From: Hyphomicrobiales bacterium
GTDB lineage: Bacteria; Pseudomonadota; Alphaproteobacteria; Rhizobiales; Beijerinckiaceae
Assembly (NCBI GenBank): GCA_947447895.1
Contig: CANFLM010000003.1
Coordinates: forward strand, 1-64,000
Direction: 5' to 3'
DNA length: 64,000 bases
The notes under the pieces are model-generated. The model searched no databases, was not told the DNA's origin, and saw only the letters and a program-made list of their open reading frames with translations. Made by a program: the position numbers and the translations under genes. Positions 58,315 to 61,792 of the stretch are shown piece after piece. How positions within the stretch are numbered: position 1 is the stretch's first letter; every line of letters starts with the position of its first letter.

Positions 58315-58968
58315 ATGCGCAAATTATGGTGGATCTATGCCCTGTGCTGGACTGCTGTTGCCCTGTGCCTGAACGCATCACAGGCTGTTGCGCATCCGCA
58401 TGTGCAGGTGCAAGCCAGTGCCAATCTGCTGTTCTCCGAGACGGGCCAGGTGACCGGCATCCAGCACCACTGGCAATTCGACGAAGCCTATTCGGCCTTT
58501 GCCGTGCAGGGCCTCGATGCCAATGGCGACGGCAAGTTCAGCCGCGAGGAACTCGCCGATCTGGCCAAGGAAAACACCGAGTCGCTCAGCGAATTCGACT
58601 ATTTCACCAAGTTGAAGGTCGACGGCAAAAAGCTCGATTTCGGCAATCCGGTCGATTACTGGCTGGATTACAACAAGGGCACACTGACCCTGCATTTTAC
58701 GCTGCCGCTGAAGGCACCAGCCAGATTGGCGCGCACCAGCGGGATCGAGCTGTATGATCCGACCTATTTCGTGGCCTTCACGTTCCACGAGGGCGATCAG
58801 GCCTTCTCCATGACATCCGCCCCCAGTGGCTGCGTGGCCTCCATCACGCGCCCCAAGACCGATATCCAGACCAGCCAGACCCTCAACGAGAGTTTTTTCA
58901 ACAGCCTGTCAGCCAAGGGTGATTTCGGTGCGCAATATGCCAATCGCGTTCTGGTTGTCTGCCCGTAA
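58315..58968 (+). CDS. DUF1007 periplasmic protein, partner of Ni/Co transporter
   Basis: 217 residues with an N-terminal signal peptide (ALCWTAVALCLNASQAVA) directly before an AHPHV start of the mature chain. It has an EF-hand-like loop DANGDGKFSREE (about 68-79). DUF1007 proteins are commonly paired with NicO-family transporters and have been proposed to be periplasmic metal-handling partners. Here the transporter gene follows after 12 bases. Confidence 0.88.
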   Translation: MRKLWWIYALCWTAVALCLNASQAVAHPHVQVQASANLLFSETGQVTGIQHHWQFDEAYSAFAVQGLDANGDGKFSREELADLAKENTESLSEFDYFTKLKVDGKKLDFGNPVDYWLDYNKGTLTLHFTLPLKAPARLARTSGIELYDPTYFVAFTFHEGDQAFSMTSAPSGCVASITRPKTDIQTSQTLNESFFNSLSAKGDFGAQYANRVLVVCP

Positions 58969-58980
58969 GGGGACGTTGCC

Positions 58981-60048
58981 ATGACAGACCATCACGCCCA
59001 TCACCACGCCCATGACCCTCTTCAAGAGGTCCTTCATGGCCAACATGGCTATCGCCGAACCGTCCTGTGGCGGCAGATCGCGCTGTTTGTCCTGACTCTG
59101 GCGCTGGTGACCGGTTTGGGCATCGTGGCGGCACAACTGTTCGCAACGATGATCCCGCCTGCAGGCAAAAATCCCTTCGGTGCGGGACTGCGTGAAGGAG
59201 CGGGTGCGGCAGGCGGCATTGCGGGGATGATCGCGACACTGCAAAGCCTGTTCTCGGCCCGCATCATTGCCGGCCTGAAAGAATTCGCTCAATCCAGCCA
59301 AGCGGTGTGGGGCGTGCTGGGGGTCAGCTTCATCTATGGGGTGATCCATGCCGCGGGTCCCGGACATGGCAAGGCGGTGATTGCGGCCTATGTGCTGGCC
59401 AGCCAGACGGCGCTGAAGCGCGGTATCGGCATGGCCATGGCAGCCGCTTTGCTGCAAGCCCTTGTCGCCATCGCACTGGTCGGCCTGTTCTCGATCATCC
59501 TGCATGCGACCGCCGCAAACCTGTCCGCGATGGCAGGGCAAATCGAGCGGGTCAGTTTTGCCGCCGTCGCTCTGGTCGGGGTCTGGTTGCTCTGGCGCAA
59601 AGCCGGACGGCTGGCCGCGCTCGTCGCACCCCAGCAGATCCACCACCATATCCACCACCTTCACGCCCACCACCATCACGACGAGACCTGCGGGTGCGGC
59701 CATAGCCATGCACCGGTTGTGCCGCAAGAAGCGGGGTTGCGGGAGATGGCTCTGGCCGTTCTGGCCGCGGGCATCCGGCCCTGCTCGGGCGCCATTCTGG
59801 TGCTGGTGTTTGCCCTGGCGCAGGGATTGTTCGGTGTCGGGGTTGCCTCGGCGCTGGTGATGGCACTGGGCACGGCCCTCACCACCAGTGTGCTGGCCTG
59901 CCTGTCGGTGCTGGCCCGCCACACGGCCAGCCGGTTGAGCGGCGGCCCAGACAGCCTCACGGGCCAGCGCGTCCTCACCGGACTGGAAATGCTGGCAGCT
60001 GCCTTTGTCGCATGGCTGGGCGCGGCCTTCCTGACCGTCGGCCTATGA
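58981..60048 (+). CDS. NicO-family nickel/cobalt transporter (RcnA-like)
   Basis: 355 residues. The short His-rich N-terminus (HHAHHHAHD) is followed by six to seven helices with the family metal block VIHAAGPGHGKAVIAAYVLA and the second AAGIRPCSGAILVLVF. Between them a His-rich cytoplasmic or periplasmic loop (from residue 221, HHHIHHLHAHHHH with CGCGHSHAP) probably senses or loads metal. RcnA exports Ni and Co; NicO members can also import. The nearby cobalt-type nitrile hydratase suggests cobalt is the relevant metal. Convergent with the nitrile hydratase accessory gene, overlapping by 6 bp. Confidence 0.9.
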   Translation: MTDHHAHHHAHDPLQEVLHGQHGYRRTVLWRQIALFVLTLALVTGLGIVAAQLFATMIPPAGKNPFGAGLREGAGAAGGIAGMIATLQSLFSARIIAGLKEFAQSSQAVWGVLGVSFIYGVIHAAGPGHGKAVIAAYVLASQTALKRGIGMAMAAALLQALVAIALVGLFSIILHATAANLSAMAGQIERVSFAAVALVGVWLLWRKAGRLAALVAPQQIHHHIHHLHAHHHHDETCGCGHSHAPVVPQEAGLREMALAVLAAGIRPCSGAILVLVFALAQGLFGVGVASALVMALGTALTTSVLACLSVLARHTASRLSGGPDSLTGQRVLTGLEMLAAAFVAWLGAAFLTVGL

Positions 60049-60417
60049 GGCGAGCGGATCGTTCTCCAGCACGATCGGCTGGCCATGTGGAGTGGCTCTG
60101 GCTGCCCTGTCCCAGGCCGATTGCACCTGTTTGAGCTGGTCAAGGCTGGTGGCGCCTTTGCTGACAGTCAAACCTTCCAGCGTGGCCAGCCAGTGCTGGT
60201 AATAGGTTTCGCCGGTATCGGGATCGCCCGCCAGTTGCGCAGCCTTGATCTGGGCCGACAGGGCTGCAGCCCATTCGCTCCAGGTGAACAGACCCTTGGC
60301 ATGGGCGTCGACCGCGAGGGCGAAGGCTTGCGCCTCCCATGGCTCGCGGAACACCGGCCCCTCGACATCGCAAGGCAGGGCCGGGATCAGTTTCAGCATG
60401 TCGGACGGAAGGGTCAT
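60043..60417 (-). CDS. Nitrile hydratase accessory protein (P14K/NhlE-like)
   Basis: 124 residues from the ATG at 60417, overlapping the beta-subunit stop as ATGA. It is homologous to the N-terminal domain of the beta subunit (PVFREPWEAQAFALAVDAH, FTWSEWAAAL), as expected for the small activator that loads cobalt by subunit swapping. Ends convergently with the NicO gene. Confidence 0.88.
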   Translation of the reverse strand: MTLPSDMLKLIPALPCDVEGPVFREPWEAQAFALAVDAHAKGLFTWSEWAAALSAQIKAAQLAGDPDTGETYYQHWLATLEGLTVSKGATSLDQLKQVQSAWDRAARATPHGQPIVLENDPLAS

Positions 60418-61082
60418 GCGGCGCGGTCCTGCAAATAGGGTTCCCAACAATCGACAATCACTTCGAGGCTGGCATCGGCGTCAGCCCCCCATAATTCCCG
60501 ACCGGAAAACTTGACGCCATAGCACCAATGCGGCTGCTCGCCCAAGCCATGCGCATGGCTGTCGGGAAACACGAAAGCCCCGTGCACCGCCACGATCTCG
60601 CCGGTCTTGCCGCGTGCATAGCGGGGCAGCCGGGTATGGGTGGATGGATGGATGACTTTGGTCACGATCCGCTCGCCAAGCGCGAAACGGGCGGGCTGAT
60701 CGACCGCCCGGTCATAGGGGCTGCCTTTTGCCAAAGCGGCCGCCACCTGAGACCTATCGGCCTTCGGCTTTTTGGTGGGAACAGCGGGCACCAGCATGCG
60801 GGCCTCTTCAAGCTCGTCAGGCGTCACCATGCCGCGCTCCGCCAGCATATTGGCCAGCGCCCGCGTCCAGATTTCGTAATAGGAAACCGACAGATAGACC
60901 GCAGGCGGCAGGCTTTCGCGCGCATGCCGCCCCATATCAAGATTCCATTCGCCCAACGCGGCGCATGCCAGCGTGAGGGCCAAAGCGCGTTTTTCCCATT
61001 CGGCATGGAAGACCGGTTCATCCACCTCGGGACACACCGGCCCGAAACCCATCATGCCGCCCAGATCCTGCGGCCCGTTCAT
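60414..61082 (-). CDS. nthB: Nitrile hydratase beta subunit
   Basis: 222 residues. Starts [16 protein letters not shown] as in NHase beta chains, with [15 protein letters not shown], and the C-terminal SH3-like barrel with [10 protein letters not shown] and YLQDRAA end. It pairs with the alpha subunit and overlaps it by 4 bp. No missing region is apparent. Confidence 0.94.
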
Positions 61083-61792
61083 GCACCCGCTCCTGCGGGA
61101 TGTGGCAGGCCGGTACCGATCATGCTGTCACGGGTGACCAGTTCGGCAAGGCGTTCCTCGCTCCAGCCCTCGGTGCCGGCGGGACGCTGCGGCAGAACAA
61201 GATAGCGCATTTCCGCGGTTGAATCCCACACGCGGATGGTCTTGTCCCTGGGCAGGGTCACGCCGAAATCGGCCAGCACGCCACGCGGATCGATGACGGC
61301 TCTGGAGCGGTAGGGCGCGGATTTGTACCAGACCGGCGGCAGGCCCAGAACCGGCCAAGGATAGCACGAGCAGAGCGTGCAAACGACGAGGTTGTGGACC
61401 TGTCCGGTGTTTTCGACCACTTTCAGATGCTCGCCCTGGCGTCCCGAAAAAGACAGTTCCGCGACGGCCGCTGTGCCGTCTGCCAGCAGGCGTTGCCTAT
61501 AGGCGGGATCAACCCAAGCCTTGGCCACCACCTGCGCCCCGCAACGCGGGCCGATTTTGGTCTCGTAGGTCTCGACAATCAGATCGAGCGCAGCGGGATC
61601 GACATAGCCTTTGGCCAACAGAACGGTTTCGAGTGCGCGCACCCGAATGGCCGCCTCCGACAATTCCGAACCGTGATCATGATCATGGTCGTGATCATGG
61701 TGGTGGTGGTGGGAATGCCCGTGATGGTGATCATGGGAATGGGAGTGGGGGTGATCATGGTCATGATCGTGGTCGTGATTATGCGTGCTCAT
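61079..61792 (-). CDS. nthA: Cobalt-type nitrile hydratase alpha subunit with N-terminal His/Asp tail
   Basis: 237 residues from the ATG at 61792. The catalytic metal claw is C138-T-L-C141-S-C143; Thr in the second position marks the cobalt type (iron types have Ser). It hydrates nitriles to amides in the cytosol. Unusually, residues 4-40 are almost only His and Asp, with 22 His in the first 40 residues, before a normal alpha chain starts at about residue 43. The tail resembles metal-storage stretches of HypB and CooJ. It is followed by the beta and accessory genes in one operon and faces a NicO Ni/Co transporter. Confidence 0.93.

Follow-up and report, generated by a model that had tools for sequence, protein, structure and literature searches.

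How cells provide a protein with cobalt rather than zinc or nickel is an open question, and nitrile hydratase (NHase), which serves as an industrial catalyst, is one of the few non-corrin cobalt enzymes. His-rich metal tails are well known on maturation proteins such as UreE, UreG, HypB and the COG0523 proteins. CbiX(L), which to our knowledge has no relation to NHase, is a cobalt-inserting protein that also has a long His-rich end, but it is a chelatase acting on a tetrapyrrole and its tail is C-terminal. Closer to the locus described here is the gamma subunit of thiocyanate hydrolase (PDB 2DD4), a cobalt enzyme of the same family that uses another substrate and carries DHDHDHK near the N-terminus of its chain, a shorter tail than that of our alpha subunit. 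The chain of PDB 3QXE, which we take to be a P. putida-like cobalt-type alpha subunit, reads SHTHDHHHD before the core. The His-rich insert of the NHase of Monosiga brevicollis was reportedly studied by Yang, Bennett and Holz in 2018, and the enzyme is said to have remained cobalt-loaded in the (His)17 deletion work. In the eukaryotic beta-alpha fusion NHases of M. brevicollis and its allies, the published description places a His stretch between beta and alpha, with 17 His in M. brevicollis, 12 in T. trahens, 11 in S. arctica, and 5 and 2 in two others (PMC3323583). The His-rich C-terminal region of CbiX(L) has been proposed to serve storage and delivery, and its deletion left the insertion reaction unaffected (PMC7689651). 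A His stretch on UreG was suggested to make up for the absence of UreE (PMC2770081).

The described system with the same gene order, cobalt claw and activator as our cluster is the NHase of Pseudomonas putida NRRL-18668 (alpha-beta-P14K), and its published description contains several results bearing on a tail. N-terminal sequencing of the alpha chain gave GQSHTHD for the enzyme and for the alpha(P14K)2 complex alike (PMC3511329), so P. putida makes a short tail that is retained and is already there while the enzyme matures. The enzyme held 0.88 Co per alpha-beta (PMC3511329), which is no more than the claw metal and therefore indicates no stable or tight store in this species. Cobalt insertion depended on the activator, and when a His-T7 tag was placed on the native alpha N-terminus, holo-enzyme activity was about unchanged (396 vs. 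439 U/mg) and cobalt ion alone gave no significant activation of the tagged apo-enzyme (PMC3511329). The tail is therefore no inserter there, and the tag results mean that extra His residues did not suffice, and brought no clear benefit, in E. coli supplied with cobalt.

The locus analysed here lies at the right end of the window, by which we mean the whole stretch of 64,000 nucleotides, where the minus strand carries the NHase genes for alpha, beta and the accessory protein in that order. The alpha gene (61079..61792, ATG at 61792) encodes 237 aa and matches PF02979 (E 2.7e-89, 297.9 bits) and the equivalog model TIGR01323 (308.2 bits vs. a cut-off of 249.9); the beta gene (60414..61082; 222 aa) matches PF21006 and PF02211 and exceeds the cut-off of TIGR03888; and the gene for the accessory protein (activator, epsilon; 60043..60450) reaches 94.6 bits with TIGR03889 against a cut-off of 46, which bears out the first-pass annotation in listing such a gene. 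Published claw motifs are CTLCSCY for cobalt and CSLCSCT for iron (PMC2770081, PMC2667541), and the claw of the window's alpha subunit reads CTLCSCY, not CSLCSCT, with CTLCSC at residues 138–143 (61364..61381, minus strand) falling in the invariant alignment columns C138, T139, L140, C141, S142 and C143. The same annotation had called the chain an otherwise normal cobalt-type alpha subunit, with which the PF02979, TIGR01323 and claw results agree, and the alpha domain, the claw and the neighbouring genes for a beta subunit and a self-subunit-swapping type of activator together mark the cluster as a predicted cobalt-type NHase.

The tail occupies residues 1–40 (61673..61792, minus strand), with His spread over residues 4–40, and is followed by the normal alpha domain (PF02979 match at residues 46–227). 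The figure of 22 His in the first 40 residues, with Asp among them, was exact: translation gives 22 His and 9 Asp. Twenty first-order Markov copies of the window contained at most 7–8 His per 40-residue open stretch, never more than 8, which rules out chance composition as the origin of the tail. A DNA pattern for HDHDH occurs 10 times in the 2.54-Mb genome, six of them inside the alpha gene, against three for the reversed-pattern control. AlphaFold returned a confident alpha core and a tail lacking secondary structure (block pLDDT 49–53), so that the tail is predicted to be a disordered terminal extension, dense in His with Asp, like the tails of the UreE, HypB and UreG type. Those tails and those of the COG0523 proteins sit on chaperones, whereas here, by domain matches, the carrier is the metal-receiving client enzyme subunit itself and not a metallochaperone or GTPase; the translated activator has no His-rich end. 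Another contig of the genome (C8; L333:1066-1785) carries a UreE gene whose product has a very long C-terminal tail rich in His and Asp. The P. putida stretch has 5 His as opposed to the 22 of the window. As in the eukaryotic fusions, the His residues stand at the N-terminal edge of the alpha domain, but there they link fused subunits, while the window's alpha and beta are separate genes sharing 4 overlapping bases, with no fused chain. A search of the window against Rfam gave no riboswitch or other known RNA at the gathering threshold.

Convergent with the NHase genes lies a gene encoding a NicO-family nickel/cobalt permease with a His-rich N-terminus and loop (58981..60048, plus strand; PF03824, E 9.3e-29), accompanied by that of its partner, a DUF1007 protein (58315..58968, plus strand; PF06226, E 6.6e-63). 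With these two proteins as queries, a search that misses distant homologues, a NicO homologue was found within 5 kb of 33 of 225 cobalt-type alphas and a DUF1007 homologue near 28; the NicO homologues lay on the strand opposite to alpha in 31 of the 33 cases and downstream of it in 32. This convergent arrangement of DUF1007 and a His-rich NicO permease recurs in other loci, several of them from Hyphomicrobiales. Among 19 annotated plasmid clusters, ten had a cobalt or nickel/cobalt transporter nearby (HoxN, CbiM-type, HupE or CbtAB) and nine had none. Several of these ten clusters are untailed, so the transporters speak for cobalt and not for the tail. According to one study, predicted cobalt permease genes sit in B12 operons or near cobalt NHase genes (PMC7689651).

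For the census, a tail was defined as three or more His before the alpha core. A first scan of one genome per species (84,980 species) supplied the best 80 loci (L001–L080), and 79 of their 80 distinct alphas had at least three His before the core, typically as a short run such as MSHDHDHDHSELSETELRV. One of the six patterns used in that scan, HNHDHDHD, came from the tail, and the census was therefore repeated with the Pfam family alone, with L001–L080 counted apart. The repeated survey found matches in 80 of 150 genomes of the window's order and in 61 of 398 genomes of its phylum, and 118 of the 129 distinct alphas with a cobalt motif (CTLCSCY/W), the window included, were tailed. The first-pass annotation had stated that typical NHase alpha subunits lack such a tail; this is false for the cobalt-type enzymes of the phylum, and a tail unique to the window gene was rejected. 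The presence of a tail is usual in cobalt-type alphas and only its length in the window is unusual: its His count ranks fourth among 239 distinct alphas from all sources, behind three relatives with 92–93% identical cores (L001, L003 and L002, with 29, 25 and 25 His). Among the papers listed by open-access searches, with subscription papers mostly outside their reach and the absence hence of little weight as evidence, none described the bacterial alpha His tail as such. The window gene therefore represents a long version of a feature that is widespread but, as far as these searches show, little discussed.

Identical alpha cores were counted once, and the tree was built from 183 of 248 cores after removal of near copies. 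Three rows were dropped before counting (L027, whose contig begins within the tail; L179, with no N-terminus; and L330, a short match), and twelve partial or weak matches of the Pfam survey and two further weak ones (L246, L248) stayed outside the counts. Plasmid loci were added as 20 hand-picked clusters of 60 among the matches listed (180 records matched).

Tails follow the claw motif. They were present on 204 of 225 alphas with CTLCSCY/W and on none of eight with CSLCSCT, three with CTLCSCT or three paralogues lacking the claw cysteines; with the plasmid loci added and the CTLCSCT alphas grouped as iron-like by their final Thr alone, the counts became 209 of 233 cobalt-motif and 0 of 12 iron-like alphas. 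Both kinds occur 2.2 kb apart in one genome (G619), where a cobalt-type alpha begins with MTDAHHDH and an iron-type alpha has no His. The iron-like alphas form one fully supported clade of seven tips in the tree of 183 cores, with a single genome family contributing 11 of the 12, so that this contrast, although a strong pattern, amounts to one evolutionary event. The three alpha-like proteins with neither a CxxCSC claw nor a His tail (L185, L187 and L188) are possibly non-catalytic paralogues; L185 reads SSLGVSYPR in place of CTLCSCYPR.

Cobalt-type clusters whose alpha lacks a tail differ in their neighbours. A CobW-like GTPase gene lay within 5 kb of 10 of 24 untailed cobalt-type alphas vs. 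2 of 209 tailed ones, and of 9 of 12 iron-like alphas, where it is expected as the iron-type activator; in the survey loci alone it adjoined 4 of 11 untailed and none of 118 tailed alphas. These CobW-like G3E GTPases are located in L224 (2096-3115) and L229 (1652-2626) and also in L323, L324, L331, L169, L208, L210, L212 and L312, with PF02492 and PF07683 confirmed on two of the CobW-like proteins. The tailed exceptions are L074 and L310, and in the latter the GTPase gene stands between an iron-type and a cobalt-type alpha, on their strand, where the activator of the iron enzyme would be expected. The untailed GTPase-linked clusters are cyanobacterial and proteobacterial, and often have the order GTPase, beta, alpha, activator and cobalt transporter. 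A 2009 paper describes the GTPase Nha3 as clustering only with iron-type enzymes (PMC2770081), which makes a homologous GTPase beside cobalt-motif enzymes noteworthy.

The His residues may also be found on the activator. With a threshold of five or more His in 25 residues near its C-terminus, a His-rich end was present in 5 of 22 untailed clusters with an identified activator (L279, L302, L223, L311 and L225, at the 3′ end of the activator gene, all with fewer than three N-terminal His on alpha) vs. 5 of 177 tailed ones. One close pair displays the exchange of positions directly: in L311 alpha has two His and the activator end nine, in L163 eight and two. The five tailed loci with His at both places (L309, L310, L293, L317 and L227, the last from Pantoea) are, among the loci analysed, those most like the P. 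putida system, and the cluster on their activators is small. Of the 10 GTPase-linked cases 5 come from the plasmid loci, as do 2 of the 5 with an activator tail. For the 11 untailed alphas of the survey, two had a His-rich activator end, four the GTPase within 5 kb and five neither by the rule used; of these five, two alphas carry two His each, a third cluster shows HHHH in the activator, the fourth is a fusion whose linker contains His, and the last (L189) has no alpha tail, activator tail or GTPase, and no identifiable activator. A His-rich beta subunit was rejected as another carrier: a density of 6 His per 20 aa is attained in 4 of 226 cobalt-type beta ORFs, and in none of these does the stretch look like a terminal tail. 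On the tree, the untailed GTPase-linked cobalt types form one clade just as the iron-like alphas form another, so the contrasts represent few independent events; given that single clade and the independent-pairs tests, which were not significant, the CobW association is used as support only. That the tail is confined to the cobalt type in our sample, and stands on alpha or activator or is accompanied by a CobW-like GTPase nearby, may be a new observation. A broader proposal, tentative and in our judgement doubtful, is that cobalt-type maturation requires a His-rich antenna in the alpha-activator complex, mostly at the alpha N-terminus and in other cases at the activator C-terminus, or else a CobW-like GTPase replacing it, and that loss of the antenna accompanied a switch from cobalt to iron.

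The reading that we prefer, with a probability of about 0.6, is that the tail is a disordered Co(II)-binding arm of the cobalt-type alpha subunit. Such an arm would catch Co(II) weakly and reversibly and thereby raise the local metal concentration at the alpha-activator (alpha-epsilon2) complex; the activator would then insert cobalt and oxidise the claw cysteines, after which alpha would swap into the alpha2-beta2 enzyme. The arm would act like the His tails of UreE, UreG, HypB or CbiX(L), but on the client enzyme; selectivity would then lie with the activator and the supply of cobalt instead of the tail. For the window's own tail, Co(II) binding, the antenna role and a benefit at low cobalt are what we infer. 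In favour of this reading stand the contrast between cobalt-motif and iron-like alphas, the selection on tail residues, the stability of tail presence on the tree, the His-rich activator ends and CobW-like GTPases of untailed clusters, and the tailed UreE of the genome; against it stand the tag results in P. putida, the loci with His on both alpha and activator, the five survey alphas with neither tail nor substitute by the rule used, and the M. brevicollis deletion work. In one study, the peptide HDHDHDHDH had Kd values of 8.4e-5, 6.3e-6 and 1.8e-7 M, which we read as those for Mn, Fe and Zn, and the Irving-Williams order would put Co beyond Fe and weaker than Ni or Cu (PMC11938343). By analogy, these affinities would suit a weak, exchangeable antenna and would confer no cobalt selectivity by themselves. 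The first-pass annotation had proposed that the tail may store cobalt or deliver it to the claw; a metal role fits best, given the distribution of tails over cobalt-motif and iron-like alphas, but storage proper is unsupported in the short-tailed P. putida enzyme, given its cobalt content. If the tail is a cobalt-catching arm, it would constitute a portable device on the enzyme itself that could be tuned for cobalt loading in production strains, with the iron-type enzymes as a natural control.

The best-surviving alternative, which we nevertheless regard as unlikely, is buffering or detoxification, in which the tails of an abundant enzyme sequester surplus Zn, Ni, Cu or Co and shield the claw from wrong metals. 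The peptide data lend themselves to it, presumed Zn being bound far better than Fe or Mn and Co being expected to bind more weakly than Ni or Cu (PMC11938343), as does the NicO protein encoded next to the cluster, whose sole NCBIfam match is to an efflux-transporter model at 40.5 bits, far under that model's cut-off of 195. Buffering leaves unexplained, however, why iron-like alphas are untailed, including the one that shares a genome with a tailed alpha, and why His-rich activator ends recur in untailed clusters.

It is decidedly unlikely that the tail is not a metal device at all but a hydrophilic, charged N-terminus that aids solubility, subunit assembly (alpha-beta or alpha-epsilon) or translation of the operon's first gene. 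Tails do go with the order alpha-beta (181 alpha-beta and 22 beta-alpha arrangements among 209 tailed alphas, as compared with 5 and 18 among 24 untailed cobalt types), yet those 22 tailed alphas lie behind beta, and all 12 iron-like alphas precede beta and are untailed. Tail composition is also dominated by His and Asp (53% and 26% of the segments bounded by the first and last His in 209 tails) and is not one of generic charge.

The window's 40-residue tail reads as a lengthened form of the MSxHDHDHDH start that is usual in its relatives, and this raises the question of slippage, in which CAYGAY repeats grow and shrink neutrally and the long tail arose passively from a short, functional start. 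The His number does vary among the window and three relatives at 92–93% core identity (22, 25, 25 and 29 in the window, L002, L003 and L001), and tails of at least 12 His require about 12 changes on the tree for 15 rows, near the values for shuffled labels (at least 13, mean 14.7); the presence of a tail, on the other hand, requires about 10 changes on the tree of 183 cores as against at least 25 in 100 shuffles. Within the 209 tails, His is encoded by 824 CAC and 590 CAT codons, both being used in 192 of the 209 genes, and Asp by 364 GAC and 323 GAT, while residues that a single first- or second-position transition would produce from His are rare (5 Tyr and 31 Arg vs. 1414 His). With third positions mixed and Tyr and Arg rare, the DNA has had time to change and His has been held by selection, the added residues also being kept. 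For Asp (687), the neighbours are 25 Asn and 112 Gly, and Gly, one transition away, is not rare, so the argument is stronger for His than for Asp. Fresh neutral slippage was rejected as the whole story on this codon and residue pattern, and passive expansion is accordingly a very unlikely account of the long tail, although slippage may have supplied the length variation. The overall pattern is a conserved short tail that has been repeatedly lengthened.

Translation from a later start, at the TTG of Leu44 or the GTG of Val51 after the His stretch, is hardly credible: these are the only start-like codons between tail and core in the window, and codons of this kind follow the tail in many of the 209 tailed alphas (63 with ATG, 107 with GTG/TTG only, 39 with none), but an ATG stands just before the His-rich stretch in 195 of 209 tailed cobalt-type relatives under a start-calling rule that favours ATG and His, the P. 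putida homologue has the sequenced N-terminus GQSHTHD, and the tail is under residue-level selection. A start-codon artefact was thus rejected on the window's codons, the selection on the tail and the P. putida N-terminal sequence, and, given the ATG in relatives and that N-terminus, the annotated start of the window's alpha gene is very likely right.

Bacterial fusions of the beta N-terminal domain (PF21006) with alpha (PF02979), 327–349 aa in length, were found in L191, L192, L193, L194, L178 and L182, both domains being Pfam-confirmed on L191 and L182. Immediately ahead of their alpha domain they carry a stretch that contains His, as the eukaryotic fusions do, and four of the six come from small genomes (1.3–1.4 Mb) of the window's order. 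The "no tail" call for L194, whose frame is such a fusion with a His-containing linker, is an artefact of the tail-start rule, which rewards His. Finally, one locus (L062) contains two alpha genes with different His tails, of 8 and 9 His.
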